From a virus: a stretch of 28,098 nt of DNA. The stretch is from the IMG/VR virus record IMGVR_UViG_3300030430_000921, positions 1-28,098 of that record. The stretch is one strand, 5' to 3'. The translations under genes were made by a program, and so were the position numbers. Of the stretch, positions 5,676 to 27,391 are shown in pieces (within the stretch, counting starts at the first letter, position 1; the number at the start of each line of letters is the position of its first letter). The notes under the pieces are model-generated. The model saw only the letters and a program-made list of their open reading frames with translations. It was not told the DNA's origin and searched no databases.

Positions 5676-6482
5676 ATGAGTTTAGGTAAATTATTAAAAC
5701 AAATAGCACCAATAGCCATAAGTGCCTTTGCAGGACCAGCAATAGGTACTTCTTTTGGTGCTAGTCCTTTCGTAAGTAGAGCTTTAACAGGAGCTCTAAC
5801 TAGTAAATTGATGGGTGGTAGATCAAAAGATGCACTAAGAACCGCACTTTTAGCAGGTGTTAGTGGTGCAGCCTTTGACAAATTTAGTGGTGCAGATCAA
5901 GCTGTAACTGGTCCAGATCAAACAATTGTTCGTGGTGGATCATCACAGCCTCCTCCTAGTAACCCTGATATTGCAAAAAGAATGGGAATAGATAAAGCTA
6001 CTGCCGTACCAACCGAAACAGCTACAAAAGGCATAGCAGAAACTTTTAAACCACGGACATTTAGTGCGGAATTACTTAAATCTGCTGGTGTTGGTGGCGA
6101 TAATCTGTTTGCTCGTTTACTTAATACACCATTGGGTGAAGGTCTTACAGCAGGATTAATTGCACAATTATTAGCTGGTGGTGATGAAGACGAAGATACT
6201 AGGACAGCATTTGAAAAACGACCATTTGGAGCAGGTGGTCCAGGCGGCAGACTAGGTGGGATTACCTTTGCAAAAGAAGGTGGTGAGATGGGATTTCCAA
6301 GACGTACAGGCGGCATTGATCCATCAGAAGGTTCTGGAACAAAAGATGATGTGCCTGCTTTGTTAATGGCAGGTGAATTTGTTTTGACAAAAGATGCAGT
6401 AAAGGGTCTAGGTGATGGCAATCAAAGAAAAGGCATCCAAAGAGCATATAACATGATGGATAAATTAGAAGCGAGGGCGTAA
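5676..6482 (+). CDS. Putative ejection/virion protein with Gly-Ala-rich N-terminus
   Basis: A 268-residue protein. Residues 1-70 are hydrophobic and small-residue rich ('IAPIAISAFAGPAIGTSFGA', then 'LRTALLAGVSGAAF'), as in proteins that insert into membranes during DNA ejection. A second hydrophobic segment lies near residues 150-170 (GEGLTAGLIAQLLAGG). The C-terminus contains 'DDVPALLMAGEFVLTKDAVK', a conserved closing motif of such marine-phage proteins, followed by a basic tail. The start follows AGG about eight bases upstream, after a 44-base gap from the previous gene. It heads a run of four genes that look like a short-tailed phage's internal or ejection proteins. The ejection role is inferred. 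Confidence 0.6.
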   Translation: MSLGKLLKQIAPIAISAFAGPAIGTSFGASPFVSRALTGALTSKLMGGRSKDALRTALLAGVSGAAFDKFSGADQAVTGPDQTIVRGGSSQPPPSNPDIAKRMGIDKATAVPTETATKGIAETFKPRTFSAELLKSAGVGGDNLFARLLNTPLGEGLTAGLIAQLLAGGDEDEDTRTAFEKRPFGAGGPGGRLGGITFAKEGGEMGFPRRTGGIDPSEGSGTKDDVPALLMAGEFVLTKDAVKGLGDGNQRKGIQRAYNMMDKLEARA

Positions 6483-7419: not shown

Positions 7420-9243
7420 ATGGTACAAGTTCCTGATAAAATAACCACAGACACTGGTAATAAACAACTTGATAGTATTCTATCGTCAATTTTAAACTTT
7501 AATATTAAAAGTGCTTTAGGTGTAGGTGGACCTGGTTCAAAACAAACTTTAAGTTCAGGATTAACAAATCAAGGCAGTATTTTTGATCAAAATTTACAAA
7601 AAAAATTACAAGAACAAAAAAGTTTACAACAAACTGGTAAGTTACCAATAGTAAGTCCTAATGTAGTTGTTGAAGAACCAATTTTACAAAAGCCACTTGA
7701 CTTAGGTGAAATAATTACAAAACAACAAAAACAAGGTGATAAAAGTACAATTTTGCCAGGTGAAGAAACAATACCATCTTTTGTTAAAGATGCTAAACCT
7801 AATGAGTTTGACATAGGCAAAGGTACAATCCCTGATGAAGGAAATGTAATAGACGAAACATCATCACCAAAATTTACAGATCCCGAAGCAGACGTAGCGA
7901 AAATTGCAGCAGAGAAAGAATTTGATATAGCTTCAGCACCAGATGAAGATATGTATGCCGATGTGCTAAAAGAAGAGGCTGCTGAAAAAGCGAAACAACC
8001 AACTGAGCAAGAACAATTGTTCGCTAATGTTATGGACGACTATAATAAATTATATGGAGAAGGCACAGGTCCTGAAGGTCCTAAATCAATAGCGGATTAC
8101 AAAAAAGATTTTGCAGAAGCAACTGGTATTGACATATCAGGTGAGCCAGACAACCGTTCAGCATTAATGGCTTTAGGTCTATCACTGATGCAAAATAGAG
8201 CTGGTAAAGGTTTTAATTTATCTAATATTCTTGGCGAGGTTGGGGCTGCTGGAGAAAAAGCTTTACCTAAATTTGAGGCTGCAAGAAGAGAAGCTAGGGC
8301 TGGTCAAGTTGCTGCTGGTAAATTTGCATTACAAGAACGAAAAGCAGATACTGCCGCAGAATTAGCATTTGCAAAAGAAAGACGTTTAGCTTTAATGAAA
8401 TTAGGCACTGAAGCTAGAGGTTACAAACAACAATATTTAATTCAAGAACTAAAAAATCAAGCCTCTTTTCAAGAGGAATTACTTAAAGCAAGAGCTAAAG
8501 CTATTAAAGATGGCAAATTAGATTTAAAAAAATCTCTTGATCAAGAAGTACAAGGTGTTAAAGGTGTTAAAATACAGTTTGGTTTTGACCAAACTGGCAG
8601 TGAAAAAATACTTAACCCTGTATCTGCTGCAAAAGGTTTGGCTGATGGATATGGTAATATTCTTCAAGCTGAGGCAGCTATTACACAACTTGAAGAAATA
8701 TCAAAAGAAATAGCTGCATCTCCATCTCCAGCCTTAACAATTGTATCTGACAGGGTAAAATCTGTTTTAGCCTCTTTAGGTGTTGATCCTAAAAGTTTAT
8801 TTAAAGAACAAAAATACACAGATGCAGATGGCAAAACAGTTACAATACCAGCAATATCACAAGAAGCAACAGCTCGTGCCATACAAGACAGGCTCCTTGC
8901 ACAATATAAAAGATTCTTAAGTCAAGAAACAGGTAACGGTATTTCTAATGTTGATTATCAGAACCTACAGAGACAAATCGGCGAAATAACAACTTTAACT
9001 AATCCACAAGAAAGGTTAGTAAGGTTGCAAGAATTAAGAAAAATATTTTCTGTACCAAAAAGAAGAATTGAATCATTGTTTGATCAGTTAAATGACAGAG
9101 GATTCCATGCAAATGATGAAAATTATAAAAGGACACAGGAAGTTTTATTTGATGTGCTACAAACATCAACTCCAGAATCATTTAACAAAAACTTTCAATT
9201 AACAAATCAAGGTATAAAAATAATTAATGTTGCAGGATTGTAA
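7420..9243 (+). CDS. Putative internal virion protein, coiled-coil rich
   Basis: A 607-residue protein. The first ~230 residues are low-complexity, rich in Lys/Gln/Glu/Pro and probably disordered. From about 235 a conserved-looking stretch 'EPDNRSALMALGLSLMQNRAGKGFNLSNILGEVG' leads into long charged helices (about 290-420) typical of coiled coils. No membrane segment is seen. A GAACAATTGTTCG palindrome lies in its coding sequence at 8011-8023. It is coupled to the 1078-residue protein by a TAATG overlap, which suggests the two are made in fixed ratio and may assemble together, as internal core proteins of podoviruses do. Function inferred. Confidence 0.6.
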   Translation: MVQVPDKITTDTGNKQLDSILSSILNFNIKSALGVGGPGSKQTLSSGLTNQGSIFDQNLQKKLQEQKSLQQTGKLPIVSPNVVVEEPILQKPLDLGEIITKQQKQGDKSTILPGEETIPSFVKDAKPNEFDIGKGTIPDEGNVIDETSSPKFTDPEADVAKIAAEKEFDIASAPDEDMYADVLKEEAAEKAKQPTEQEQLFANVMDDYNKLYGEGTGPEGPKSIADYKKDFAEATGIDISGEPDNRSALMALGLSLMQNRAGKGFNLSNILGEVGAAGEKALPKFEAARREARAGQVAAGKFALQERKADTAAELAFAKERRLALMKLGTEARGYKQQYLIQELKNQASFQEELLKARAKAIKDGKLDLKKSLDQEVQGVKGVKIQFGFDQTGSEKILNPVSAAKGLADGYGNILQAEAAITQLEEISKEIAASPSPALTIVSDRVKSVLASLGVDPKSLFKEQKYTDADGKTVTIPAISQEATARAIQDRLLAQYKRFLSQETGNGISNVDYQNLQRQIGEITTLTNPQERLVRLQELRKIFSVPKRRIESLFDQLNDRGFHANDENYKRTQEVLFDVLQTSTPESFNKNFQLTNQGIKIINVAGL

Positions 9244-12200
9244 TGGGCGTTGTTAAATTTAAAGTAGGTGATGAAGAGCTTGGTTTTCAAATCAAAGGTG
9301 ACAAGCCAACATTTAGCGAACAATTAAAAATTGGTCGTTATCTTAAATCTTTAGAAAGTGGCGAAAATCTTGAAACAGCAGATGAAGAACCAACAGATCC
9401 TAAGTTACAGTTCGATGTAGAGACTGGCATAAAAAGTAATGCATTACGTTCAGCACTTGGTGTCGCTGAAACAAAAGAAGAAGAAGACGCTATTCTTAGA
9501 AAATTTGATTTAACAGATGATGATTTTTTAAGAGATAAACGTGGTAGACTTGCGTTAACGCCTACAGGTGCATCAAAGTTTGGTCAAGAGACAGACAAAA
9601 ATATATTGATAGATGAAGAAGGATTTAGTCGGTATGACTTTTCTGATTTATCTGGCATAGCACCAGAACTAATTGGTGGTGTGGGTGGTGCAATTTTGGG
9701 ATCAGTATTGTTACCTGGAGTAGGCACGGTGCTTGGCTCTGCATTAGGTGCAGGAGCTGGAGCAGGAGCAGGGCAAGCAGTCGAAGAACTAGGCGAAACT
9801 ATTGCTGGTGTGCAAAGACAAACACTATCTGAGGTTGGTAGTGATGTTGCAACTGAAGCAGCCATTGGTTTTATAGGTGATGGTTTGTTTGGATTACTTG
9901 GCAAAGCTTTCAGAGGCACTAAAGCTGCAATGAAACCAGGTAAAGATTTTACTGAAACTGAGTTGAAAACTGCTGGTAAGTCAATACAATCACCGTTAGA
10001 TGAGCAAGGTAGAATATACGCTGATGATCCAAGAATTGGTGTTTTAGCAGAAGAAGGTGATGTGGCGTTTGCAGGATTAAGAGATAAAATAAATCCACAA
10101 AAATTTGCAGATTTATCAGAACGTGAAAAATTAAGGTCAATTGAACGTGGTGGTTTTGGTTTACTGCCCACATTAACTGGTATAAGAGCACCATCACTTG
10201 TAGCTAGAATACAAGCTATTGGTGAGAAAATATTTAAAACTTCTGACCGCTTAAAGAATAACAACGACAGAATTAGACAAGTTGTTGATGCTTATAAAAA
10301 GCAGATTGGCGTAGGAGATGAAGTAACAACATCTGAAATAGGTGATATATTAGTTGAGGGTATTAAACAGGGTAACAAAAAGTTATTAGATCAACATAAA
10401 AAAGTTTCTGAAGATGTAGTGCAACATTTGAATGACACCGTTGATCAATTTACCAATGCAACCTTTAATAAATCAGGTGTCGAGGAAGATTTATTTGATA
10501 TTTTACAACAAACTTCAAAAAACACTGAGGACCTTGTAAAAGCAGAGTTTGAGGCTGTTGATAAAATATTAGCACAATCAGATTTAGCAACTAAAGAATT
10601 AGTGCCTTTAAAATCACTTGAAGATAAATTAAATACTTATTTAAGAAAATATCAAAGACGAATCAAAGGTAATACTCCTGATGGATTGCAAATAGAAAAT
10701 CTTGCAAGAATTTTATCTGGACAAGGCAAGATAGGCAAACAAGTTAAACTTAAAGGTAAAGTAAGTTTTGAAGAACTTTATGATATAAGACAAGCTTTAA
10801 GTGACATAAGAATGGATGGCAGGACATCTGGCACTGTAAGAAGTATGTTAACTAATTCTTCAAGGACTGGTATTTTAGATAATGTTGATCAAATTTTTAC
10901 AGATTTAGGTAGAGGTGGTATTACAAAAAAATTTATTGCTGGTAGAACTGGTGGTGAAGAGAGACTAATTGATACCGATGCTTTTAATATACTTACAAGA
11001 GATTTAGGCACTGATCAAGTAGATGAAATTAAAAAAGCTGGCGAGTCTTTTGCATCGGCTAGGGCAAAGTTTTTTGAAGCAAAGTCTGCACAAGAAAAAT
11101 TATTTGATAACGCAACAATTAAAAAGTTTGAAGCCATCGCAAGACGAGAAGGTGCTGATGCTGTTGATACACCAACATCAATTAATATATTCAAGGATAT
11201 AATAAAACCAAATAATGGCAGATTTGTTAAAAGAGCTTTAAATTATATTAAAGAATATGCTCCAGGTGATGTTAGTGGAGATGCTTTTGCTGAAAGATTT
11301 AGGCAGAGAGCTTTAAATCAATTTCTAAAAGATGCTGTTGAGACATCAAACTTAAACTCTGTGTCAAAAGATTTTAACGGTACAGCTTTTGCAAACGCTA
11401 TAAGAAACTTAGGTGACACAGGAGATGTGTTATTTGGTGCACAAAAGGATGATATATTAAGACTAGCAGATGAGTTTGATGCAGTAAATTTTAAAAACTT
11501 AAGTGCTGAAGATGCACTGACACAATTAGAAGGTTTGAATCCTAATGCAACTTTCTTAGATAATATGAAAGAATTGCAAAGAATACAAAAGCAACTTGAT
11601 GCACAAAAAGCAAATGAAATACAAAAGAAAGTTTTAGCAGGTGAGTTTAAAGAGATAGGACCGATTGAGACAGCCGAACTGTTAGTAAAACCTAATTCAT
11701 CAGCTAGAGATCTTAAAGGCATTGTTGACTATTACAAAACAAACAATGTTGAAGGCTATAACAAAATTAAAAGTTATTACATAAATCGTATGATTGACGA
11801 TTTTGGTGAGTCAGTTATGACTGATGGCAAAACACTTAATGCTTTTGCAGACAGACTATTAAGTCGTGCTAAGGACGGCAAACTACAGGTTGTATTTGGT
11901 GAACAGATGGGTAAAAGCATGGAAGAGTTTGCTAACATACTTAAATTTAATGCTAAATCCGCAGAGGGTGGTGATCTTGTTGCTGCTAATATAGCTGCCT
12001 CACCATTTCAAAATGTTGGTAAACTTATTAAGTTTTCGATACTTGGTCGTAAAATGTTATCTAAAGGATATTATGATGACATAGTAAAGCAATATAAAAA
12101 TGAGGTTAGAGACTTAAGAACACCAAGAGAAAAAGCTATGGTATTAGGTAATATTATTGCACAAACATTATCACAGTTGCCAGGGCAAACAATACAAGAG

Positions 12201-12479: not shown

Positions 12480-12925
12480 ACGTAGAACAGCTAAGAGACA
12501 CTCTCAAAGTTGATGAGGGCTGTGTAAATTCCATTTATTTAGATCACCTTAATTTACCCACGCTAGGAATTGGGCACCTTATTAATGAGTGGGATGAAGA
12601 ATATGGCAAGCCAGTTGGCACACCAGTATCAGAAGAACGTGTCAACGAATTATTTGAAAAAGATGTCCAGGTAACCTTAGAAGAGTGCGAACAATTATTC
12701 GGAAATTTTCAGGAGTTACCTGAAGAAGTACAGCAGATCTTAGCCAATATGATGTTTAATCTTGGCAGACCAAGGTTATCCAAATTTAGGAAACTTTGTA
12801 AAGCTGTGGCTGAGAGAAACTGGCAAGAATGTGCCGCCCAAATGCACGATTCAAAATGGAGAACACAAGTGCCAAATCGTGCCGAAAGATTAATCTCTCG
12901 TATGAAGGCTATTGATAGCACCTAA
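12476..12925 (+). CDS. T4-type lysozyme (endolysin, GH24)
   Basis: A 149-residue muramidase that hydrolyses the MurNAc-GlcNAc bond of peptidoglycan. The catalytic triad is visible with exact T4 lysozyme spacing: Glu14 in VDEG, Asp23 in YLDH and Thr29 in TLGIGH (Glu+9 = Asp, Asp+6 = Thr; Glu11/Asp20/Thr26 in T4). The C-terminal half has the family helices ('EVQQILANMMFNLGRPRLSKF' region, 'SKWRTQVPNRAERLISRM'). There is no signal peptide or membrane segment, so release should need a holin, and none is obvious beside it. The start is ATGA-coupled to the preceding gene. Its last 36 bases overlap the minus-strand gene at 12890-13102. Confidence 0.92.
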   Translation: MNVEQLRDTLKVDEGCVNSIYLDHLNLPTLGIGHLINEWDEEYGKPVGTPVSEERVNELFEKDVQVTLEECEQLFGNFQELPEEVQQILANMMFNLGRPRLSKFRKLCKAVAERNWQECAAQMHDSKWRTQVPNRAERLISRMKAIDST

Positions 12926-13102
12926 ACCTAAACTAGTAACTTTGTTTTTGTATTTACTATATTCCTCTTTATTAAACTCTCTATCTATCAATAAACCTAA
13001 TTGTTGTCTTATATTTCTTCTTTGATAATCACATATTTTATTTAATTTATCATAACTTTCTAAATCTATACCAACTGACTTGAATTTTGTTGTATCTGCC
13101 AT
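12890..13102 (-). CDS. Small ribbon-helix-helix (CopG/Arc-like) protein
   Basis: A 70-residue product starting MADTTKFKSVGIDLESYDKL. The pattern 'K-x-V-x-I-D-x-E-x-Y-D-K-L…YQRRNIRQQLGLLIDREF' is a classic RHH fold: one beta strand that pairs in the dimer to contact DNA, then two helices. The start at 13102 is supported by a strong ribosome binding site (GGGAGGT, six-base spacing) and a sigma70-like promoter at 13137-13165 on the same strand. A longer in-frame ORF upstream lacks such support. It converges on the lysozyme and starts 14 bases from the divergent DUF1064 gene. Likely a DNA-binding regulator or antitoxin-like protein; no toxin partner was seen. Confidence 0.72.
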   Translation of the reverse strand: MADTTKFKSVGIDLESYDKLNKICDYQRRNIRQQLGLLIDREFNKEEYSKYKNKVTSLGLGAINSLHTRD

Positions 13103-13115
13103 TACACTACCTCCC

Positions 13116-13630: not shown

Positions 13631-14389
13631 TTACGACCTTTGATTATAAATCTTTAGTCTTATTCGTTTTTCTGGACTAGTTTTATGATTATATAATCTT
13701 TCTATACATAAGATAAAATCATTACGACTGCCTTGATTTGTCAACTTGGAAGAATAATTTCTAAGTCTATTTTCAAAGATACTCCAAACAAAATTTGGAT
13801 CATTCATCACAGAAATCATGGCACGAATAAAAGTTCCTTTTTTATATTTATCAAAGTATTCACCGACCTTTAATATAGATTTTGCAATATCTTTACCTTT
13901 TTCAAGATCATGCACCACAAAGTGCCCTTCCCTAAATTGAGCATAATCATAAGAATCAAGATAACCTTTGCCGTTTAACATTGCCAAAGAGTCGGATACA
14001 CTAAAATCATAAGTTCTAACAAACCACTCCAAGGTTACATAGTGCTTTGATCCTAACTTAAAATGAGACATCATGTACTCATTCATAGTCCACTTACGAT
14101 TAACAGAATTTAACTTTCGTATATCCTGAAGTGTAAGACCTTCTTTAACTATATAGTGAACTGGTAAACCTAAAACTTTATAAGCCTCAAGTCTATGCTG
14201 ACCATCACAAACTTCCATTTTTTCGTTGACGATTATAGGAATATTTAGATCTCTCTGATCTATTTGAGCAGATAAATCTTTAACATGCTTATTAACTACA
14301 TCTCTATTACCAACTAAGAAAGTAAACTTTTCATAGTCAGACGTTATATGTATTTTATTTTTATTAATATTTTGCAATTTTTTCTCCAT
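13631..14389 (-). CDS. ParB-like (ParB/Srx fold) protein
   Basis: A 252-residue protein with the ParB N-terminal signature: 'VVNKHVKDLSAQIDQRDLNI' followed by 'VCDGQHRLEAYKVLGLPVHY' (DGQHR at residues 62-66), the phosphate/nucleotide-contacting motif. The remaining ~170 residues are helical and unlike plasmid ParB DNA-binding domains. Phage ParB-like proteins of this size are often annotated as nucleases or methyltransferase-associated proteins; CTPase or nuclease activity cannot be decided here. The start shares a base with the upstream RHH gene's stop (TAATG), so the two are co-translated. It is transcribed against the rest of the genome. Confidence 0.78.
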   Translation of the reverse strand: MEKKLQNINKNKIHITSDYEKFTFLVGNRDVVNKHVKDLSAQIDQRDLNIPIIVNEKMEVCDGQHRLEAYKVLGLPVHYIVKEGLTLQDIRKLNSVNRKWTMNEYMMSHFKLGSKHYVTLEWFVRTYDFSVSDSLAMLNGKGYLDSYDYAQFREGHFVVHDLEKGKDIAKSILKVGEYFDKYKKGTFIRAMISVMNDPNFVWSIFENRLRNYSSKLTNQGSRNDFILCIERLYNHKTSPEKRIRLKIYNQRS

Positions 14390-17280: not shown

Positions 17281-18952
17281 ACCATATCAAGAGATAGCAG
17301 TACAAGATGCTTCTGATGCACTTGATAAACACAAAAACACAATAGTTGTAGCACCAACTGGTGCTGGTAAAACAATTATGCTATCTGCTCTGATTGGCAA
17401 GAGATACTCTAAAGGCAAAAAGATTTTAGTCCTGCAACATCGAGATGAACTTGTTGGACAAAATACAAACAAATTTACTCGTGTTAACCCAAAAATAAGC
17501 ACAAGTGTTGTAGACGCATCCGAAAAAAATTGGTCAGGTAATGCTGTTTTTAGCATGGTCCAGACCTTATCGAGACCGAACAATTTGGCTAACATGTCTA
17601 AAATCGACATGATGGTGATAGATGAAAGTCATCATGCAATAGCCGATACATATATGAGAATTATCAAAAAAGTCAAAGAAGCTAACGAGTCAGTTGAAAT
17701 TGTTGGCTTTACTGCTACACCTAATCGTGGTGACAGAAAAGGGTTGAAAGATGTATTTAACAACTGCTCACACCAGATAGAAGTTGCTAGTTTGATACGA
17801 GAAGGTTTTCTTGTACCACCAAAAACATTTGTTATAGATGTCGGTGTCCAGCAAGACTTGCAAAATGTTCGTAAAACTGTGTCAGATTTTGACATGGGAC
17901 AGGTCGAACAGATTATGAATAAACGTGCCATTAATGAAAAGATAGTTGAAGAGTGGCAGGAAAAAGCAGGCAGTAGAAAAACAGTTATATTTTGTAGCAC
18001 AGTAATTCATGCACAAGACTTATGTGATGAATATAGACGTGCACAAATCCGTGCTGAAATTGTGACAGGTGAAACACCATCAGACCAACGAAAGCAAATA
18101 CTACATGATCTTGAGCACGGTGATGTGCAAGTTGTGGTCAATGTTGCAGTATTAACAGAAGGCTTTGATGCACCACCTGTCAGTTGTATTGTGCTTACAA
18201 GACCGTGTTCGTATAAATCTACAATGGTGCAGATGATTGGTCGTGGACTACGAACAATAGATCCAGAAGCACACCCTGGCGTAATTAAAAAAGACTGCAT
18301 AGTTTTAGATTTTGGTACAAGTGTTTTGACACACGGTTCACTTGATGAAGGTGTGGACCTAGATGGTAAAGATCAAATGCGACAAGGAACTGGACCAGAA
18401 AAAATATGTCCAAACTGTAAGTGCCTTATACCATTAAGTGTTCGTGTATGTCCTATGTGTGGACATGAAATCGAAATGCAGGCAAAAGAATTATTAGAAA
18501 CATTTAACATGACAGAGGTTGATCTGATAGATAGATCACCATTTAGATGGATAGATTTATTTAACAACGGCAGGTGCATGTCAGCCAGTGGTTTCAACGG
18601 GTTTGGTTTAGTTGCACATTTAGATGATCTATCCGTGGCGTTAGTTAAACGTACAAGGGGTAGACTTAGAGTTGTGGGTGTCGGCACCAAAGAACAAGCT
18701 TTAGCTTCTGCTGATGATTTTTTGAGGCAAATAGAAGATAGTGATGGTGCTAAGAAAGGTAAACGCTGGTTAAATCAAGCTATGACAGAAAAACAAAGAC
18801 AAGCTTTAGCTAGGAAAAACAAGGTAGTTAGTCAGTTAGATCTTAGTTTTAGTAAGTATAAGGCGGCTTGTTGGTTAAATTATTTGTGGAATAAACAAGA
18901 AATTGATGGCAAAGTTTTAGACTATTACGAAGGAGATAACAATGCAGCGTAG
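17270..18952 (+). CDS. Superfamily 2 DEAD/H-box helicase with C-terminal zinc ribbon
   Basis: A 560-residue helicase. It shows a Q-motif-like RPYQ at residues 4-7, Walker A APTGAGKT (28-35), motif II DESH (118-121), motif III TAT (148-150) and motif VI QMIGRGLR (321-328). After the two RecA domains comes a four-cysteine zinc ribbon (CPNC at 380-383, CPMC at 394-397) and a ~150-residue C-terminal domain. The pattern suits phage UvsW/RadD-like helicases that remodel branched DNA or start replication forks. It lies between the SSB-like gene and the nuclease/primase genes, consistent with replication and recombination. It overlaps the previous gene by 11 bases and the next by 11. Confidence 0.9.
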   Translation: MILRPYQEIAVQDASDALDKHKNTIVVAPTGAGKTIMLSALIGKRYSKGKKILVLQHRDELVGQNTNKFTRVNPKISTSVVDASEKNWSGNAVFSMVQTLSRPNNLANMSKIDMMVIDESHHAIADTYMRIIKKVKEANESVEIVGFTATPNRGDRKGLKDVFNNCSHQIEVASLIREGFLVPPKTFVIDVGVQQDLQNVRKTVSDFDMGQVEQIMNKRAINEKIVEEWQEKAGSRKTVIFCSTVIHAQDLCDEYRRAQIRAEIVTGETPSDQRKQILHDLEHGDVQVVVNVAVLTEGFDAPPVSCIVLTRPCSYKSTMVQMIGRGLRTIDPEAHPGVIKKDCIVLDFGTSVLTHGSLDEGVDLDGKDQMRQGTGPEKICPNCKCLIPLSVRVCPMCGHEIEMQAKELLETFNMTEVDLIDRSPFRWIDLFNNGRCMSASGFNGFGLVAHLDDLSVALVKRTRGRLRVVGVGTKEQALASADDFLRQIEDSDGAKKGKRWLNQAMTEKQRQALARKNKVVSQLDLSFSKYKAACWLNYLWNKQEIDGKVLDYYEGDNNAA

Positions 18953-19503: not shown

Positions 19504-19676
19504 AGGCATTGTCCGAACAATTTCAAAAAATAGGTTGGAATAAACAACTGGTGCATTTGACACAGGATGAAGCACTTGCCATAATCTCTGCAATTCAATC
19601 AGTCAGTGGAGATAATGATGGCGTTCTCGACCTTAATCCAAAGTCAATCTCACCAGATGATGAAATCCCATTCTAA
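19464..19676 (+). CDS. Small hypothetical protein
   Basis: A 70-residue acidic protein, MDELNNGNGHSALKALSEQF, then 'QKIGWNKQLVHLTQDEALAI'. It is helical in the first two thirds and ends 'SPDDEIPF', like the acidic 'DDDIPF' tip of bacterial SSB proteins that docks partner enzymes. GGAG lies about seven bases before the ATG. The SSB-like tip suggests it might recruit replication proteins or be an SSB-mimicking adaptor; this is inference from eight residues. It overlaps the previous gene by 40 bases and ends one base before the nuclease start chosen here. Confidence 0.62.
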   Translation: MDELNNGNGHSALKALSEQFQKIGWNKQLVHLTQDEALAIISAIQSVSGDNDGVLDLNPKSISPDDEIPF

Positions 19677-19677
19677 T

Positions 19678-20385
19678 ATGTTGAGCAAAGAGATAATTAA
19701 AATTATTGATGATTCTATCATTGATAAAGATAAAGATAATGAGCGTAGGACTTACTTAGGTGCTTCCAGTTTAGGAGACTCCTGTTCTCGCAAGATCCAG
19801 TATAGATACATGGGTACACCAGTTGACGAGGGTAGAAACTTTAGTGCACAGACACTTAGGATATTCCAGTTTGGACACGAAATAGAGTTTAGTATGGCTG
19901 GTTGGCTGCGTCAGGCTGGGTTCGACCTGCGTGTTGAAGATAAAAATGGCGAACAATTTGGTTTTAGTATAGCTGAAGGTGAGATCAAGGGTCACATTGA
20001 TGGTGTGATTTGTTCGGGTCCACTAGATACACCTTACCCTATGTTATGGGAGTGTAAGTCAGCTAATGATAGAAAGTTTAAAGAGTTTCAAATAAAAGGC
20101 GTGACAATAGCAAATCCAGTTTACGCTGCACAGGTCGCACTATACCAGGCATATATGAAGTTAACAGACAATCCATGCCTGTTTACTGTTCTTAATAAGA
20201 ACACAAGCGAGATTTATTATGAGTTTATACCTTTTAACAAAGCTTTAGCACAAGAAGTAAGTGATAAGGCTGTATCAATACTTGAGGCAACAAAAGCAAA
20301 TGAAATGTTACCTAGACTAGCACAGTCTCGTGATTATTTTGCTTGTAAATATTGTGAGTTTCAGGACAGTTGTTGGAGTAATTAA
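19678..20385 (+). CDS. Cas4/RecB-like PD-(D/E)XK nuclease with Fe-S cysteines
   Basis: A 235-residue nuclease from ATG 19678. Longer in-frame starts overlap the upstream gene and lack ribosome binding sites. The catalytic pattern is GHEIE near residue 67, Asp108 in GHIDG, Glu125 and Lys127 in WECKSA, and the QVALYQAYM motif near 152. One cysteine at 36 (GDSCSRK) and a C-terminal 'CKYC…SCW' (223, 226, 232) form the four-Cys set of the 4Fe-4S cluster of Cas4/AddB-type exonucleases. It probably resects DNA ends for the Sak4/SSB annealing pair. No CRISPR array or other cas gene is present, so a CRISPR role is unlikely. Confidence 0.85.
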   Translation: MLSKEIIKIIDDSIIDKDKDNERRTYLGASSLGDSCSRKIQYRYMGTPVDEGRNFSAQTLRIFQFGHEIEFSMAGWLRQAGFDLRVEDKNGEQFGFSIAEGEIKGHIDGVICSGPLDTPYPMLWECKSANDRKFKEFQIKGVTIANPVYAAQVALYQAYMKLTDNPCLFTVLNKNTSEIYYEFIPFNKALAQEVSDKAVSILEATKANEMLPRLAQSRDYFACKYCEFQDSCWSN

Positions 20386-20446: not shown

Positions 20447-22615
20447 ATGAACATAATAAAACTTGGCAATAAAAATAGAGACATGTCAGCCAATGAACTT
20501 GTCGATTTAATTAGCGAAAAAGTGCCACCCAGTGTGCAAATAAGTGCACTAAAAGACACTTATCCACAAGGGGTTGTTCGGGGTGATGTATTTACAATCG
20601 GATCACTAAACGGTGAAGCTGGTAAATCACTTAAAATAGATATTAATCCACGCTCACCTTACTTTATGAAGGGTTCAGACTTTAACGGATCACAGGGCAT
20701 CGGAGGCATAGTTAAGATTTTAATGGAGGGCAGAGGTATGCGTTTGCCTGAAATCAAAGAATTGTTCGGAAACTATTTAGATGATACAGCTCATGTTGAA
20801 CAGGAAATACCACAGGAACTAAGCGTAACTTTTAAGCGTGCTATTGATGTAAATACGCCATTTGACTCCGAACATTTATACCTGTCAGTCGATGGTGAGA
20901 TCCTGTGTCGGGTTCGTAGATACAATATAAAAGATGATAATGGCAATCCAATCATGGATAGTCATGGTAAACCAAAGAAAGAGTTTAGACAGTTTACAGA
21001 CTCCCCTTACCCAAGGATACCAGATGTCAGACCTTTGTATAACATACCAAACATAGCTGCATCGGAAAAAGTTATATGGGTCGAGGGCGAAAAGTGTGCA
21101 GATGCACTCAATGAGCTTGGATATACTGCTACTTGCACTATGGGAGGTGCAGGCATGTTATCTCGTAAATCAGCCAGTCGTTTTGACTTCAGCCCTTTAC
21201 AGGACAAAGAACTAATTATATGGGGCGATAACGACACGGCAGGACGTAAAGTTGCTGAACTGGTTCAGGAATTAGCCCTTAATGCTGGTGCAAGATCGGT
21301 TACTACACTAACGCCACCACGAGGTAAACCAGAGGGCTGGGACGCAGTTGATGCAATATCAGAGAACTTCGATGTTCAACATTTTTTAAACACAACTGTT
21401 AAACATACTAAGCGTAATATTAATTTACTGGATGATAGCCTGCTGGTCAGCAGATTCGAAGGTCAGGCACCCGAACAAAAGTTTTTAGTTGATGGTACAT
21501 TTCCATTGGGCGTGCCCATAATTTTCTCAGCAGCAGGGGATGCTGGTAAAGGTATGATGACACTGGATTTAGCGATGAAAGTCGCATCAGGTCAGCCCTT
21601 AGCTGAGAGTTTTGGTAGCACAATAGGTGAGTTTGGCAATGTTGTAGTGTTTACGGCAGAGGACGATGAAGCAGAAATGCACAGGAGAATTGAACGCCTG
21701 GATACGAACAATTTGCGATTTAATTATCAACACGAGCTGCGTGTGGTGTCTTTGCCTAACGTAGGTGGTGTGTTTCCTATACTGCAAGAGACACGAGATG
21801 GTTATAGGACCAGTGATGAATTTGATAAACTTTACGAACAAATGTTGCAAATGAATAACTTGAAGTTAATAATTTTTGATCCGTTGGCTTCGTTTGTTCA
21901 TGCAGATGTAAATGCAGACCCAGCCGCAGGAGCCGCACTTACTGGCTTGTTAGCACAGATCGGAACTGAAACTGGTGCATCAGTTGTTATGTGTCACCAC
22001 ATGACTAAGGTAAAAGATGATACAATTATTAATACGCCTGAGCAGGCAAGATTGCTTATCCGTGGTACGTCAGCACTGGTTGATGGTGTCAGATGTGCCT
22101 TTGCCCTGTGGCAAGTTGATGAAGCTACTGGGCGTAGACGTTGCATGGATATAGGCACAGAATATGAGCGTAATAGGTGTTTTGACGGGGCAGTTGTAAA
22201 AAGTAATGGTCCTGCTAACAGAAACATTAGACATTTTGTTAGAAATAGTTATTCTGGATTACTAGAAGATAAGACTGAGGAGATAAAGCGATTACATTCT
22301 GGCTCTAATCGTGAAATTAAGAAGGACGCTTTGTTTGCTTGGATTGCAACCTGTGAAAGGGAGGGCAGAGCGTTGACACAACAGTCGGGAGCAGATGCTA
22401 TCATTCAGCGATTACACTCTGATCGTGATGCACCAACAGTCTTAAATAACTTAACGCAGCGTAGTATTGACGGAATTGTTCGGGAACTAATCCAAGAAGC
22501 AAGAATCGGGAAGTATTCATTTACCGCTTCGGGTGGTCGAAAATGGCTCGGAACCACCGATGGTGTGATGTCCCAAGGCGAATACGAAGCGTCAACAGCA
22601 ACAGATAATGTCTAA
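20447..22615 (+). CDS. Phage primase-helicase (TOPRIM + RepA/DnaB-like ATPase)
   Basis: A 722-residue bifunctional replication protein. The N-terminal ~200 residues lack a zinc-finger cysteine pattern. The TOPRIM domain shows EGEK at 213-216 and GDND at 260-263, the metal-binding residues of primases. A RecA-fold ATPase follows: P-loop AGDAGKGM (363-370), Walker B LIIFDP (474-479) and CHHMTK (516-521), as in RepA/DnaB-like helicases. The P-loop has Gly after Lys where Ser/Thr is usual. GAGG lies eight bases before the ATG, after two hairpins. A perfect DnaA box falls within its first codons (20560-20568). It should prime and unwind the phage fork. Confidence 0.87.
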   Translation: MNIIKLGNKNRDMSANELVDLISEKVPPSVQISALKDTYPQGVVRGDVFTIGSLNGEAGKSLKIDINPRSPYFMKGSDFNGSQGIGGIVKILMEGRGMRLPEIKELFGNYLDDTAHVEQEIPQELSVTFKRAIDVNTPFDSEHLYLSVDGEILCRVRRYNIKDDNGNPIMDSHGKPKKEFRQFTDSPYPRIPDVRPLYNIPNIAASEKVIWVEGEKCADALNELGYTATCTMGGAGMLSRKSASRFDFSPLQDKELIIWGDNDTAGRKVAELVQELALNAGARSVTTLTPPRGKPEGWDAVDAISENFDVQHFLNTTVKHTKRNINLLDDSLLVSRFEGQAPEQKFLVDGTFPLGVPIIFSAAGDAGKGMMTLDLAMKVASGQPLAESFGSTIGEFGNVVVFTAEDDEAEMHRRIERLDTNNLRFNYQHELRVVSLPNVGGVFPILQETRDGYRTSDEFDKLYEQMLQMNNLKLIIFDPLASFVHADVNADPAAGAALTGLLAQIGTETGASVVMCHHMTKVKDDTIINTPEQARLLIRGTSALVDGVRCAFALWQVDEATGRRRCMDIGTEYERNRCFDGAVVKSNGPANRNIRHFVRNSYSGLLEDKTEEIKRLHSGSNREIKKDALFAWIATCEREGRALTQQSGADAIIQRLHSDRDAPTVLNNLTQRSIDGIVRELIQEARIGKYSFTASGGRKWLGTTDGVMSQGEYEASTATDNV

Positions 22616-22817
22616 GAAGGGCAGATACTCTAAACAATCAAGACAGTACAATGCTTTGCGTGCCTACACAAAAAAAATAATGGCAAAAAAGACGCAGCCA
22701 GATGAATCCGAACAATTATTCGAAGACGATCCCAGGGCAGCAAAAGAAATAGAATATGGTAGAGTCAGACGTAACCATACGACTATCTGGACCAGAAGTA
22801 ATATCACTGAATGTTAA
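22608..22817 (+). CDS. Small basic hypothetical protein
   Basis: A 69-residue protein, MSKKGRYSKQSRQYNALRAY, then 'TKKIMAKKTQPDESEQLFED', with a strongly basic N-terminus and a mixed C-terminus. It overlaps the primase-helicase by eight bases and has no strong ribosome binding site, so it depends on coupling. It contains a CGAACAATTATTCG imperfect palindrome at 22709-22722. No domain was recognised; the basic N-terminus would suit nucleic-acid binding. Confidence 0.5.
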   Translation: MSKKGRYSKQSRQYNALRAYTKKIMAKKTQPDESEQLFEDDPRAAKEIEYGRVRRNHTTIWTRSNITEC

Positions 22818-23808: not shown

Positions 23809-24149
23809 TGAAGTCTAAAAGCGATAAATGTTGTAACTGTAATGAGAAAATTGTTCGGGGTATGGCGTTTCCCTTGATGGAAAAAAGTTTGTGCATGAGT
23901 TGTTTTGTACATTTTGGATTGGCACAAAAACTTGATATTAGCATGCTGCATTATCAGAATTGTTCGAAGTTACATTGCTTTACCTGTGAGCATGCGTTCA
24001 TTAAAGCACTATGGGCACTGGACTACAAACAGACGCAAATGGGTAACTGGTATAGGTGCACCAGCGACCCCAAAGTTGTTCGGATTTATGACGAGTTACT
24101 TACCAACTTACCAACTTGCACGGTAAGTAGATTGGAGGGTAAGTTGTAA
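23808..24149 (+). CDS. Cysteine-rich putative zinc-binding protein
   Basis: A 113-residue protein with eleven Cys. An N-terminal 'CCNC…SLCMSC' pair (residues ~8-35) could bind zinc, and 'NCSKLHCFTCEH' (about 52-63) a second. A TGG- and Tyr-containing region (NWYRCTSDPKVVRIYDELL) follows. GGAGG lies eight bases before the ATG, which overlaps the upstream stop. No family was recognised. The last ~50 bases carry the first ACTTAC repeats of the downstream cluster, so that DNA has two functions. Confidence 0.62.
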   Translation: MKSKSDKCCNCNEKIVRGMAFPLMEKSLCMSCFVHFGLAQKLDISMLHYQNCSKLHCFTCEHAFIKALWALDYKQTQMGNWYRCTSDPKVVRIYDELLTNLPTCTVSRLEGKL

Positions 24150-24300: not shown

Positions 24301-24314
24301 AACCCCTCTCCCCC
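24267..24314 (+). terminator. Paired G/C hairpins upstream of the small terminase
   Basis: CCCCC-TATA-GGGGG (24269-24282) is a perfect palindrome. TATAGGGGG repeats in tandem (24274-24282, 24283-24291), and GGGGGAGGG (24287-24295) can pair with CTCTCCCCC (24306-24314). These are strong stems in otherwise AT-rich DNA. No T-run follows, so a transcription pause, terminator or packaging-site element are all possible. Confidence 0.45.
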
Positions 24315-24350
24315 TACCCCAATAACTAAAATAAATGGAGTCAAAACGTA

Positions 24351-24863
24351 ATGCCAAAAGTAGGTGAAAATTTACCAAAAGAACAAAGAGAAAAAGGTCT
24401 TAAACGATTAACGCAAAGACAACAAGACTTTCTTGATAACTTTATGCACAAGGATATGACGCAGACTAATGCCGCCAGGCAAGCTGGATACAGTAACCCG
24501 TCAGTAGACGCAGTTAGGTTGTTGCGTAATCCAGTAGTGCAGGAGCGATGGCAAGAAATGCAGGAGGAGAATCGGGCTCGCTTCGGGGTCACTCTTGATA
24601 AGTCGCTTCGGGACCTGTTAAAGATCCGTAACGAAGCACTGGATCGGGAAAGATATGGCGAGGCTATTCGGGCTGAAGAACTACGCTTACGGGCTTCTGG
24701 AGTGCTTATAAACAAGTCCCATGTACTACATGAGAAAGTTGACAAGATGTCGAAGGAGGAAATACTGGCTGAACTTCAGGCTCTACAACAAAAAGCTGAG
24801 TCACGCATGAAGAGAGCCAATGTTTCCCATATAGAACCAAAAAAGATAGGTAAAACTAGCTAA
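24351..24863 (+). CDS. terS: Terminase small subunit (Terminase_2-like)
   Basis: A 170-residue protein. 'LTQRQQDFLDNFMHKDMTQT' then 'NAARQAGYSNPSVDAVRLLR' and 'NPVVQERW' match the Terminase_2/TerS DNA-binding HTH domain (residues ~20-65). A helical oligomerisation region (about 75-115) and an extended charged C-terminus follow. The protein should bind the packaging site and hand genomic DNA to the large terminase, which is not in the window. GGAG lies about ten bases before the ATG. The 200 bases upstream are packed with repeats and could include its binding site. The gene is richer in TCGGG and G+C than most neighbours. Confidence 0.87.
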   Translation: MPKVGENLPKEQREKGLKRLTQRQQDFLDNFMHKDMTQTNAARQAGYSNPSVDAVRLLRNPVVQERWQEMQEENRARFGVTLDKSLRDLLKIRNEALDRERYGEAIRAEELRLRASGVLINKSHVLHEKVDKMSKEEILAELQALQQKAESRMKRANVSHIEPKKIGKTS

Positions 24864-25277
24864 AAGTGGGATTATCGGGGTAAAAACTTGCTGTGTCGGC
24901 AGCCAAGGAGACCGAACAATTCCTACAGGCATCGGGATCGGGCTAGTGATCGGGCTGTTACCTGCTGCGGAACCGTATAATTGTTCGCAGTCAGGTGCAG
25001 GTACAGCATAGGGATCGGGGGTGTCCACGTTCCTTCTTCGTAGTCATACGTACAATTGTTCGGATTCAGGCACAGCAGGTCAGGCTGCCCAGGAAGGATC
25101 GGGGTGAACGGGGATCGGGACTCGCTGCCTCCTGGTTGAATACGCACAATTGTTCGGAGTCGGTACCAGGCAGCAGGTGTACCAGGAGTCGCTGACGCAG
25201 CAGGTCAACGCCTGGGGCGTGAAAGCGTACAATTGTTCGTACTCACAGCAGCAGGTACAGCAGCGATACCAGGCATG
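24864..25277. repeat. GC-rich noncoding island of short repeated words
   Basis: About 410 bases with no supported gene and composition unlike the AT-rich surroundings. It is built from recurring words: CGAACAATT/AATTGTTCG (24913, 24979, 25054, 25148, 25231), GCAGCAGGT/ACCTGCTGC (24960, 25170, 25197, 25248), and many ATCGGG and CCAGG/CCTGG copies. AATTGTTCG-N-A-N-TC followed within about 25 bases by CAGCAGGT recurs as a composite unit (25051-25080, 25145-25178, 25228-25256). ORFs here lack ribosome binding sites. The island ends at the A-tract of promoter P3. Function unknown. Confidence 0.75.
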
Positions 25278-25330
25278 AAAAAAAATAAAAAAAGTTGTTG
25301 ACATTAATATTGTAATGATTACTATATATT
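25278..25330 (+). promoter_or_regulatory. Promoter P3 (A-tract, TTGACA, GTAATGATTACTATAT core)
   Basis: A8-T-A7-G (25278-25294) precedes TTGACA (25298-25303) and GTAATGATTACTATAT (25312-25327). Depending on which bases form the -10, the spacer is 16 (TACTAT) or 19 (TATATA). The leader continues CAGCCATAGGAGAAA, nearly identical to that after P4. The ATG inside the core (25315) is not a start. Confidence 0.75.
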
Positions 25331-25359
25331 ATATTAATTCAGCCATAGGAGAAATAAAA

Positions 25360-25761
25360 TTGGATTATAACAATATGAAAGAAGCTGTAATTAAGCAGCT
25401 TAACATGAGCGAAGAAGACACTAAGCAAACACTAAAAGACGTTATTAATGGCGGTGCTGCTGGTGGATTCTCAGGTTTTATTTATCATTACGAAACAGTT
25501 AAATTTGCCAAAGATAACATAAAAGCTATTTATGGCTATGCTAAAGAGCAAGCCCAAGAGCTAGGCGAAGACGTTTACAAAATGATACAAGGGTTTAGTT
25601 GTTTAAAAGATATGAGCCCGTTAATCTCAGAAATTGCCGACACTATACACGGTCACCCAGATAAGGCAACGGTTACCGATGGAATGGATACGCAGATACT
25701 TAACGCTTTAGCTTGGTATGCTCTTGAGGAGGTAGCACATAGGGAGGTCGAAGATGCTTAA
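25360..25761 (+). CDS. Hypothetical protein, probable TTG start
   Basis: A 133-residue protein. TTG 25360 is chosen as start because AGGAGA (25347-25352) lies eight bases before it and the leader matches the one before the next P4-driven gene. The ATG at 25315 is inside promoter P3, and ATG 25375 is too far from the ribosome binding site. The sequence 'EAVIKQLNMSEEDTKQTLKD' then 'INGGAAGGFSGFIYHYETVK' is helical with a Gly-rich turn. Later come 'KDMSPLISEIADTIHGHPDK' and 'ILNALAWYALEEVAHREVED', typical of small cyanophage and marine-phage DUF proteins. No function can be assigned. Confidence 0.7.
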   Translation: MDYNNMKEAVIKQLNMSEEDTKQTLKDVINGGAAGGFSGFIYHYETVKFAKDNIKAIYGYAKEQAQELGEDVYKMIQGFSCLKDMSPLISEIADTIHGHPDKATVTDGMDTQILNALAWYALEEVAHREVEDA

Positions 25762-25963
25762 ACAATCAGCACACATTCACATAATTGAAGACGATAACGG
25801 AGACATTGCAGACATTAAGTCATATTGTTCTGATGACTGCAATAAGCAGGACAACGGAGATAATTACCGAGGCTGGAACGGATTAAACGAAATTTCGACC
25901 AGTCAGAAGTGCGAAAACTCTAACTGCAATAACCAGATAGCAGGAGTTAACGAAGATGATTAA
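25754..25963 (+). CDS. Small acidic Asn/Cys-rich hypothetical protein
   Basis: A 69-residue protein, MLKQSAHIHIIEDDNGDIAD, with many Asp/Asn and five Cys ('SYCSDDCNK', 'KCENSNCNNQ'). The two Cys pairs (C-x3-C and C-x4-C) could form a small metal-binding ribbon. GGAGG lies about seven bases before the ATG, and the gene overlaps its predecessor by eight bases. No family was recognised. Confidence 0.65.
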   Translation: MLKQSAHIHIIEDDNGDIADIKSYCSDDCNKQDNGDNYRGWNGLNEISTSQKCENSNCNNQIAGVNEDD

Positions 25964-26123
25964 AAAAATTAATGATATTCAAAAAATGTTCGCTTTTTAC
26001 GGTTTTACAAATTGTCCGATAAATAGAAAAAAAATAACTAGCCTTATAATTAGGGGATTTAGTAAAGAATCAATTTACTTAATTGGTTGCGATATTTATA
26101 ACGGCACCAGTCATTTAAAATAA
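25956..26123 (+). CDS. Very small hypothetical protein (55 residues)
   Basis: ATG 25956 lies nine bases after AGGAG (25942-25946) and overlaps the previous gene by eight bases. The product begins MIKKINDIQKMFAFYGFTNC and ends YLIGCDIYNGTSHLK. It is basic and aromatic with two Cys. The ribosome binding site and overlap geometry support translation; no domain is recognisable. Confidence 0.6.
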   Translation: MIKKINDIQKMFAFYGFTNCPINRKKITSLIIRGFSKESIYLIGCDIYNGTSHLK

Positions 26124-26278
26124 TCGGGGAATTGTTCGGGAAAATCGGGAGCGGGGCGACCTGCTGCCGATTTTTTTTGTCTTGGTTTTGGCTACAGGTA
26201 TTATTGGTTACCTGCGGCAGCACCAGTCCGAACAATTGTTCGAAGTCGCAGCAGGTATCCTGGTATATCCTCTTGCCT
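26124..26278. repeat. Second GC-rich repeat-word island
   Basis: About 155 bases sharing the words of the island at 24864: AATTGTTCG (26130), ATCGGG copies, ACCTGCTGC (26159), and the composite CGAACAATTGTTCG…GCAGCAGGT (26229-26256). CTGCGGCAG and CCTGG also recur. There is no gene. It starts right at the previous stop and ends at the A-tract of promoter P4, the same placement as the first island. Confidence 0.72.
26229..26242. promoter_or_regulatory. Perfect CGAACAATTGTTCG palindrome
   Basis: A 14-base perfect inverted repeat matching the CGAAC-N4-GTTCG form of Gram-positive/actinobacterial LexA boxes. It lies about 70 bases upstream of promoter P4. It may bind a dimeric regulator; LexA is only one option, because the same word is also abundant inside genes. 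Confidence 0.5.
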
Positions 26279-26280
26279 GT

Positions 26281-26341
26281 AAAAAAATAAAAAAAAGTTT
26301 AATTACCTGTTGACATATTAGTAGTAATGATTACTATATAT
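26281..26341 (+). promoter_or_regulatory. Promoter P4 (A-tract, TTGACA, GTAATGATTACTATAT core)
   Basis: A7-T-A8-G (26281-26297), TTGACA (26310-26315) and GTAATGATTACTATAT (26324-26339), with the same nine-base TTGACA-to-TAATGAT spacing as P3. The leader CAGCCAATAGGAGAAA also matches P3, so the whole module of about 80 bases looks duplicated. Confidence 0.75.
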
Positions 26342-26366
26342 ATAAACAGCCAATAGGAGAAAACAA

Positions 26367-26516
26367 ATGAGTAAATATAATTCAGATGCAATAGATGAAT
26401 GTTGCGATCAAATACTAGGTCATACGAACTGGGGTTATGGCAAAAATCCAAATACTAAAGAAATAGAATGTGTCGTTATATTCTATAAAGAGCCTGAGGA
26501 TGAAGATAATGACTAA
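26367..26516 (+). CDS. Very small acidic protein (49 residues)
   Basis: The first gene after promoter P4, with AGGAGAAA eight bases before the ATG. It begins MSKYNSDAIDECCDQILGHT and ends KEPEDEDND. It has two adjacent Cys plus one more, and a strongly acidic tail. Strong promoter and ribosome binding site support expression; no family was recognised. It overlaps the following membrane microprotein by eight bases. Confidence 0.62.
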   Translation: MSKYNSDAIDECCDQILGHTNWGYGKNPNTKEIECVVIFYKEPEDEDND

Positions 26517-26598
26517 GTGGGAGGTAGCTTTGGTGGTGGCTCAGTCCATCACCTTTTTTGCAGTTATAAGTGCAGTCGTAATAATAATACCATTTTAA
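26509..26598 (+). CDS. 29-residue single-pass membrane microprotein
   Basis: The ORF MTKWEVALVVAQSITFFAVI… continues SAVVIIIPF and stops just before the ribosome binding site of the GGCT gene. Residues 6-29 are almost entirely hydrophobic, giving one membrane helix after a short MTKWE head. GAGG lies nine bases upstream, and the start overlaps the previous stop in TAATGACTAA. It may be a small holin-like, superinfection-exclusion or membrane-modulating peptide; none of these can be chosen from sequence. Confidence 0.55.
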   Translation: MTKWEVALVVAQSITFFAVISAVVIIIPF

Positions 26599-26608
26599 GG
26601 AGGTAGTA

Positions 26609-27145
26609 ATGAAAAAGATATACTTTGCATACGGTGCGAATACAAATAAAGAGGCTATGAAGCATAGGTGTCCTAACGCCAGGGCTATTGGGGCTGGGCA
26701 TTTAAATGACTTCAGATTAAAGTTTAACAATGTTGCGGATATTGATAAGTTTACTTATCCAGAAATTGAATCAGCTTGGTATAGTGAAGCCCCAGTGGTT
26801 ATTTGGGAAATTACACCAGATTGTGAGAAAGCCCTAGATAGATTCGAAAGCTTCCCAAGCTTGTATAGAAAAATTGAAGTAGACGGATACATTCACGAAA
26901 AGAATACGAATGGTGATTACTTTAAACACTATCACGGATTCGCTTACAAAATGAACTGGTCGGGTCTCAACATACCTAATGCTAGTTATGTTCATACGAT
27001 AAGGGAAGGTTTAAAAGGGTTCCATCCTAAAAGTAACTGGGACTATATCGATAAGATGATAGACGAAGCCATACTTGAAAGCTTCAAAGCATCAGAGGAA
27101 AGCCTTAATTCCCATCGGAAATACGGTGGGTCTAACTGGCGATAA
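26609..27145 (+). CDS. Gamma-glutamylcyclotransferase (GGCT/AIG2-like)
   Basis: A 178-residue protein behind a near-perfect AAGGAGG. The N-terminal MKKIYFAYGANTNKEAM has the family's Y-G-[AS]-N substrate-binding loop (YGAN, 8-11). 'VVIWEITPDCEKALDRFESF' then 'PSLYRK' carries the likely catalytic Glu80 and the conserved LYRK region. GGCT enzymes release 5-oxoproline from gamma-glutamyl amines or peptides. The amidoligase at 27392 is the known genomic partner type, proposed to make amide linkages that GGCTs remove or edit. Both may modify peptides, cell-wall material or small molecules during infection; the substrate is unknown. Confidence 0.82.
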   Translation: MKKIYFAYGANTNKEAMKHRCPNARAIGAGHLNDFRLKFNNVADIDKFTYPEIESAWYSEAPVVIWEITPDCEKALDRFESFPSLYRKIEVDGYIHEKNTNGDYFKHYHGFAYKMNWSGLNIPNASYVHTIREGLKGFHPKSNWDYIDKMIDEAILESFKASEESLNSHRKYGGSNWR

Positions 27146-27161
27146 GTTTACCCCTGGCAAC

Positions 27162-27188
27162 AACCCCAGCTTCAGGCTGGGGTTTTTT
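27162..27188 (+). terminator. Strong Rho-independent terminator after GGCT
   Basis: AACCCCAGC (27162-27170), loop TTCAG, GCTGGGGTT (27176-27184) with a run of six T (27183-27188). This is the clearest intrinsic terminator in the window; it ends the P4 operon and insulates the origin region. Confidence 0.9.
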
Positions 27189-27200
27189 CCTGAACGGGTA

Positions 27201-27214
27201 CGAACAATTGTTCG
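27201..27214. promoter_or_regulatory. Perfect CGAACAATTGTTCG palindrome beside the origin
   Basis: The second perfect 14-base copy, 13 bases past the terminator T-run. It is followed by TGTTCATCGGGCATCGGG, words shared with the GC-rich islands, and lies about 43 bases from the first DnaA box. Confidence 0.55.
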
Positions 27215-27256
27215 TGTTCATCGGGCATCGGGCACCAGGGGCATCTGCTCAATAGG

Positions 27257-27312
27257 TTATCCACAACTTATCCACACATATAGGTTTAAGGTTTTTGGAA
27301 TTTTTTTTTAAA
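27257..27312. other. Probable replication origin: tandem DnaA boxes and AT-rich tract
   Basis: Two perfect TTATCCACA boxes (27257-27265, 27268-27276) lie on the same strand 11 bases apart, one helical turn. They are followed by AT-rich DNA ending in a T10/A5 tract (27301-27314) that could be the unwinding element. A CGAACAATTGTTCG palindrome lies upstream and AATTGTTCG (27313-27321) downstream. TTATCCACA is the high-affinity DnaA box of many bacteria, so host DnaA may open this origin. Only two other perfect boxes were noticed in the window (20560-20568; 2800-2808 on the minus strand). Confidence 0.65.
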
Positions 27313-27328
27313 AATTGTTCGTATTCAC

Positions 27329-27356
27329 TTGAATATTGCAATCATTACTATATAAT
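27329..27356 (+). promoter_or_regulatory. Promoter P5 for the amidoligase gene
   Basis: TTGAAT (27329-27334), a 16-base spacer and a perfect TATAAT (27351-27356). The variant core GCAATCATTACTATAT (27338-27353) matches 14 of 16 bases of P3/P4. AATTGTTCG (27313-27321) ends seven bases before the -35. Confidence 0.75.
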
Positions 27357-27391
27357 AAATTTAAGTTAAACAACAAAAAGAGGAAATTAAG

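Follow-up and report, generated by a model that had tools for sequence, protein, structure and literature searches.

A dispersed nine-base word in a marine phage lineage, its phased array beside terS and a candidate XRE-type binding protein

Why should one nine-base word, AATTGTTCG, recur throughout a virus genome, inside genes as well as between them? This question is raised by IMG/VR record IMGVR_UViG_3300030430_000921, whose 28,098 bases form the window, the whole stretch analysed here (fuller relatives measure 52-59 kb). Based on comparisons with related records, we propose that the copies are putative binding sites of one phage protein, most likely a small helix-turn-helix (HTH) protein of the XRE type, and that the likeliest output would be stoperator-like regulation. 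We hold this reading with about as much confidence as doubt.

Counting confirmed that the word is far in excess. There are 24 exact copies over both strands (14 forward, 10 reverse), and these occupy 22 places because the perfect palindromes at 26229/26234 and 27201/27206 each hold one copy per strand. Dinucleotide shuffles of the window gave a mean of 0.26 copies and a maximum of 2, the second-order Markov expectation was 0.20, and AATTGTTCG ranked first by z-score among the 9-mers of the window. An earlier reading made from the letters of the window (the sequence-only reading) had called the 9-mer hugely over-represented and had proposed a count against a Markov background, under which the excess stands. 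All 22 places that it listed are present, with the first two starting at 5924 and 8015 rather than at 5921 and 8011, and it rightly marked the sites at 12688 and 22709 as variants, both being CGAACAATTATTCG. It was also correct that copies fall within and between genes: half are intragenic, and density is about 5.6 copies/kb in intergenic DNA versus 0.46/kb in genes, making intergenic DNA 12-fold denser. Its claim that copies thicken toward the origin was right in part, as density climbs rightward, but "toward the origin" is unsupported because no origin has been shown at the right side.

AATTGTTCG makes up the strong arm of CGAACAATTGTTCG, an imperfect palindrome that often has an outer TGA/TCA. 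Aligning 143 instances from the window and three relatives with 35-45 copies each (G001, G002 and G003) on the invariant 9-mer gave the consensus ..AA..CGAACAATTGTTCG.A.TCA, in which one arm is strong, the second degenerate and the outer contacts weak. The second arm matches CGAAC at a mean of 3.3 of 5 positions in intergenic copies, 1.8 in genic copies and 1.2 in background. Orientation relative to transcription is mixed (14 plus and 10 minus in the window, near-equal in G001). The sites and the features around them are as follows; entries are copies of AATTGTTCG unless otherwise stated.

5924..5932, plus strand: inside an open reading frame (ORF), context CAAACAATTGTTCG
8015..8023, plus strand: inside an ORF, context AGAACAATTGTTCG
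9317..9325, minus strand: near the start of a large tape-measure-like gene
12688..12701: CGAACAATTATTCG, in a lysozyme-like gene; G001 has it at the same place
17577..17585, minus strand: in the helicase gene; kept in 23/23 distinct relatives compared
19514..19522, minus strand: intergenic, ahead of the exonuclease gene; kept in G001-G003
19950..19958, minus strand: in the Cas4-like exonuclease gene; kept in 28/28 distinct relatives compared
20760..20768, plus strand: in the primase gene; 100% conserved
21705..21713, minus strand: in the primase gene; 97% conserved
22474..22482, plus strand: in the primase gene; 100% conserved
22709..22722: CGAACAATTATTCG, in a small gene; kept in G001-G003
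23849..23857, plus strand: in a small gene; 90% conserved
23958..23966, plus strand: in a small gene; 90% conserved
24351..24863, plus strand: terS, terminase small subunit (phrog_51), with an array 3' of it in every lineage examined
24913..25239, plus strand: helically phased array, with copies at 24913(-), 24979(+), 25054(+), 25148(+) and 25231(+)
26130..26138, plus strand: intergenic
26229..26242, both strands: perfect palindrome CGAACAATTGTTCG, 68 bp ahead of a TTGACA promoter-like box at 26310
27201..27214, both strands: perfect palindrome CGAACAATTGTTCG, behind a terminator-like hairpin with a T run
27313..27321, plus strand: intergenic, directly upstream of a promoter-like element

Copies inside genes are retained far better than their surroundings. 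In the helicase-to-primase region the window shares 80-82% DNA identity with G001, G002 and G003; all seven copies there are identical in each of the three, while only 18-21% of all 9-mers are. The same picture emerged gene by gene among distinct relatives of the same lineage (23 helicase, 28 exonuclease and 35 primase sequences), where the copies were conserved at 97-100% against a mean 9-mer conservation of 0.19-0.31 and ranked among the best-conserved 9-mers of these genes. At 17866, 18251, 21835 and 24076, similar words whose core is TTGTTCG or TGTTCG are likewise invariant, and the copy at 22474 fixes an arginine codon as CGN where many diverged relatives have AGA or AGG. These alignments indicate that the intragenic copies are under strong purifying selection at the DNA level. 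Such selection, together with the genome-wide spread, agrees with the earlier suggestion of a DNA mark spread over the whole phage, as opposed to a few operators.

The densest block of copies lies directly 3' of terS, mostly in one orientation, with palindrome centres 61, 75, 94 and 83 bp apart and A/T-rich DNA after it. Each lineage examined that bears terS has such a row behind the stop codon of this gene, with copies set in steps of roughly 10.5 bp. Throughout the window lineage the first copy lies 56 bp past the stop (57 in a few), and spacings cluster at 51-53, 61-62, 74-76, 82-86, 94-96 and 107 bp; in diverged lineages, whose spacers are unrelated in sequence, they cluster near 41, 52, 63, 75 and 84 bp. 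For 101 approximately non-redundant spacers between copies of the same orientation, the resultant length (R) was 0.46 at 10.5 bp, with the best value (0.48) at 10.8 bp. The nominal Rayleigh p (~1e-9) is too optimistic because of residual relatedness among the spacers; a jitter test, in which none of 5000 sets was as periodic as the observed one, agrees with phasing. The sequence-only reading had asked whether positions or density, rather than flanking sequence, are conserved; the array is present after terS even where spacers are unrelated. In G005, an apparent second row of TTGTTCG lies away from terS at 43746-44247 (L258:3746-4247), with spacings near 40-44, 52, 64 and 74-75 bp.

Across lineages the TTGTTCG core is common and its flanks vary by lineage: gAnTCA in the window lineage, [cg]TnT in G004, G005, G007 and G011 (G011 retains AATT ahead of the core despite this flank), and GGTTT in G013. 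The flanks that the XRE proteins of G005 and G013 are predicted to prefer are GTTCG[CG]TnT and GTTCGGGTTT, respectively. In the window and ten records with the XRE gene, TTGTTCG is enriched 6.4- to 13.5-fold; the corresponding values for G006 and G016-G019 are 0.5- to 1.9-fold. In relatives with other flanks, the coding copies of the window lineage are mostly gone and others stand at different places, a pattern as for sites that track a changing protein. The word occurs only with the window's right-arm lineage; relatives that share a 716-amino-acid structural protein at 81-96% identity mostly have 0-2 copies in the DNA around it. The gene for this protein (3092-5242) matches many marine contigs at 81-96% identity, and the DNA around those matches is mostly without the word, pointing to mosaic exchange of left and right arms.

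With these observations in mind, which protein could read the word? Gene comparison and hidden Markov model searches led to an XRE-type HTH protein of 127-133 amino acids, encoded in the right arm just ahead of the late genes. Contig L167, which is 99.6% identical over window positions 23860-28098 and extends the window rightward, would place this gene (L167:5199-5582) at 29058-29441 in extended coordinates, about 1 kb past the right end. A profile search (A3) found the protein in 13 of 25 records, all 13 of which hold 30-52 copies of TTGTTCG; a fourteenth, weak match in G008 (E = 0.006, in a 312-amino-acid frame) was left out of the count. Nine records without the gene have 0-6 copies. In three others (G010, G020 and G022), with 15-40 copies, the gene was not found, and these contigs end ahead of its place. 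In 56/56 matches of the window lineage the recognition helix is GLSLRTWCHYE or GVSLRTWCHYE, although the rest of the protein drops to 64-69% identity; lineages with other flanks carry SERGYRCYE (23) or SARMYRYYE (5). The protein matches HTH_19 and HTH_3, both under curated cut-offs. Its AlphaFold model has a mean pLDDT of 77, and the Foldseek neighbours (C.Kpn2I, Stl, Aca1, Aca10, Aca2 and P2 C) are all XRE regulators; structures of Aca1 exist on 14- and 19-bp palindromes. The link between protein and word is an association and not proof.

From these patterns we infer the following mechanism. The XRE protein would bind the dyad TGAnnnCGAACAATTGTTCGnnnTCA, for which the AATTGTTCG arm would be essential and the other arm would range from perfect, in intergenic copies, to absent, in many intragenic ones. 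Several molecules would assemble on the array after terS, an arrangement that would require the sites to face the same side of the helix. The protein would also sit on the scattered copies in genes for replication, packaging and structure. As a result, the rightward operons would have their transcription shut down or timed, and exclusion of phages with the same word is a possible added output.

Several observations weigh against this proposal. Copies have no consistent orientation to transcription and many lie mid-gene, unlike the stoperators of L5 (PMC9283540), and those of the array lie upstream of the next promoter without covering it. No AATTGTTCG was found in the 180 bp upstream of the XRE gene at 38 loci, unlike what is seen with an autoregulated repressor; the nearest copy in L167 is at 28334, within the preceding gene. 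Co-occurrence is confounded by descent because the XRE, TerS, primase, exonuclease and helicase genes are co-inherited, and the joint change of helix and flank rests on about 3-4 lineages. The Foldseek matches span mostly the HTH half, with E > 0.001. A lysogenic state is unproven because no Phage_integrase match was found in 12 records, and an integrating prophage was rejected for the same reason.

Two further genes of the window have a bearing on the choice of binder:

12893..13114, minus strand: small ribbon-helix-helix-like (RHH) protein, an alternative candidate binder
13631..14389, minus strand: ParB-like protein (phrog_12305), accessory and not the cognate binder

The ParB-like gene belongs to an accessory two-gene cassette on the reverse strand (13631-14820), together with a 142-amino-acid protein whose tail looks like a ribbon-helix-helix; the cassette region is missing from G003-G005.

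The sequence-only reading had left the type of mark open among partition, packaging, Chi-like and regulator sites. A regulator fits best; partition by the ParB-like protein and Chi-like sites do not fit, and a packaging role for the array beside terS is conceivable. In one such scheme, TerS or a Rep-like protein would bind the array as a pac/cos or origin element, with the scattered copies as secondary sites. The constant place behind terS, the phasing, the mostly uniform orientation and the A/T-rich DNA that follows all suit this idea, as does the conservation of both the TTGTTCG core and the TerS HTH across lineages. However, that HTH is nearly constant where the flanks change, and neither the selection on single copies in the helicase, exonuclease and primase genes nor the conserved copies far from terS would be explained; we regard the scheme as unlikely. 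Dispersed sites plus a phased array, with no integrase found, could also belong to a centromere or compaction system of a non-integrated genome that works through the XRE or RHH protein and not the ParB-like one. Most carriers of the word have the RHH protein and some relatives the ParB-like cassette, but ParA (AAA_31, PF13614) was not found in 10 records, RHH was not found at E<0.01 in G013-G015 (G013 has a 34% identical 58-amino-acid ORF) and the distribution of the ParB-like gene does not follow that of the word; this makes the system rather improbable. A bolder and speculative scenario, which we also consider unlikely, is that a phage protein other than ParB organises the whole genome: it would nucleate on the phased array beside terS, bridge dozens of selected genic sites and couple gene shut-off with compaction, replication or packaging, and the lineage-specific sites would form a genome-wide self/non-self code.

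Partition by the window's own ParB-like protein on parS sites is barely credible. Its gene is present at 13631-14389, but G003 lacks this gene region and yet has 39 copies, while the carriers G006 and G016-G019 have only 2-6 TTGTTCG, near chance. We therefore rejected this protein as the binder, and the failure to find a PF13614 ParA in those 10 records led us to reject a classical ParABS system too. A host-derived word, whether Chi-like, a LexA-type GAAC-N4-GTTC box or a general word bias, is very improbable. With its GAAC-N4-GTTC shape, CGAACAATTGTTCG resembles Gram-positive SOS boxes. Against a host origin stand the near absence of the word around the 81-96% identical structural gene, flanks that track phage lineage, clustering of copies in a phased array and the lack of an excess in the SAR11 phages HTVC023P and HTVC027P (50 kb examined of each). 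Relatives without the word led us to reject codon or host word bias; a Chi site fits neither these relatives nor the lineage-dependent flanks. An RNA element was also rejected, with no Rfam match and no tRNA. A similar repeated word in G016, TGCCGCA (20 copies), was set aside, with no clear palindrome or array.

Other repeated elements were seen. Promoter-like elements near 14921, 25298, 26310, 27323 and 22836 have in common TTGACA, TATATT and, between them, a box like GTAATGATTAC/GTAATCAATAC, which might reflect another regulator or a phage-specific promoter type. G+C-rich intergenic spacers (24880-25260, 26130-26260 and 27180-27260) hold further repeated words, GCAGCAGGT-like ones among them; ATCGGG has 15 copies in the window versus 3.4 expected, and TCGGACT stands at the same spacer place in diverged relatives. 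These words are possibly a second protein's sites. In L339, a contig of a Porticoccaceae metagenome-assembled genome (MAG), CAATTGAAC has 11 copies in 18 kb where 0.22 would be expected, and may mark a further system of dispersed sites.

The marine group to which the virus belongs is large, with at least 593 relatives of the 716-amino-acid structural protein in IMG/VR. More distant relatives of this protein occur in SAR11 phages HTVC023P and HTVC027P and Roseobacter phages CRP-901 and CRP-902; the records of the two HTVC phages, searched in full, gave no HTH_19 match, and the 50 kb examined of each has no such word. Genes of the window include a Sak4-like annealing protein, a helicase, the Cas4-like exonuclease and terS, and the primase-helicase shares 39% identity with a protein of Wolbachia phage WO. 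Right-arm genes (27393-28098 and 26609-27145) include a gamma-glutamyl cyclotransferase-like protein (phrog_2520) and, judging by translation, an amidoligase-like gene that runs off the window. TerL relatives in genome_contigs are spread across various MAG bins and also occur in a few Pelagibacteraceae single-cell genomes, and no host is assignable.

How does this layout compare with known systems? The element did not turn up in literature searches. In the phage-plasmid N15, centromere sites are dispersed over the phage genome. N15 SopB binds the palindromic sites IR1-4 (PMC7205306), so both cases have several separate palindromic sites per phage genome and one binding protein, here putative. 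Unlike N15, with four sites and a ParA/ParB pair, the larger relatives here have more than 40 sites, ParA was not found and the ParB-like gene does not track them. Regulators of the Aca1/Aca2/Aca10 and P2 C/Stl types are the nearest structural and sequence neighbours of the XRE candidate; for Aca1 and Aca2, structures exist in complex with palindromic or operator-like DNA. However, such regulators are understood to act at a single operator or a small number of them, in most cases their own (PMC9410881, PMC9410906), whereas the present word recurs dozens of times and is absent from the vicinity of the candidate's promoter.

Genome-wide shut-down by dispersed regulator sites is best known from the cluster A mycobacteriophages, in which the L5 repressor family has 20-30 sites that drift together with the repressor (PMC6550527, PMC9283540). 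The uncultured marine phages described here now show a similar layout: many copies of one site genome-wide (more than 20; 24 in the 28-kb window), a candidate phage protein of the HTH type and a site motif that drifts with it among related phages. L5 stoperators are 13-bp, asymmetric, monomer-bound sites that lie in promoters or short intergenic spaces and are oriented with transcription (PMC9283540). In contrast, the present site is a degenerate palindrome, unoriented genome-wide and often mid-gene, and a phased array of copies follows terS. The candidate protein is short and of the XRE type, and integrase was not found. Since the defining orientation with transcription fails, we do not file the AATTGTTCG system as a stoperator. 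What is unusual is the strong selection on intragenic copies, the fixed place of the phased array next to terS, and a conserved core flanked by bases that change along with the recognition helix of one small protein. The proposal names one protein and one DNA sequence and is thus directly testable; if true, it would offer a means of predicting which of these marine phages exclude one another. By analogy with cluster A, the AATTGTTCG system may work like stoperators.

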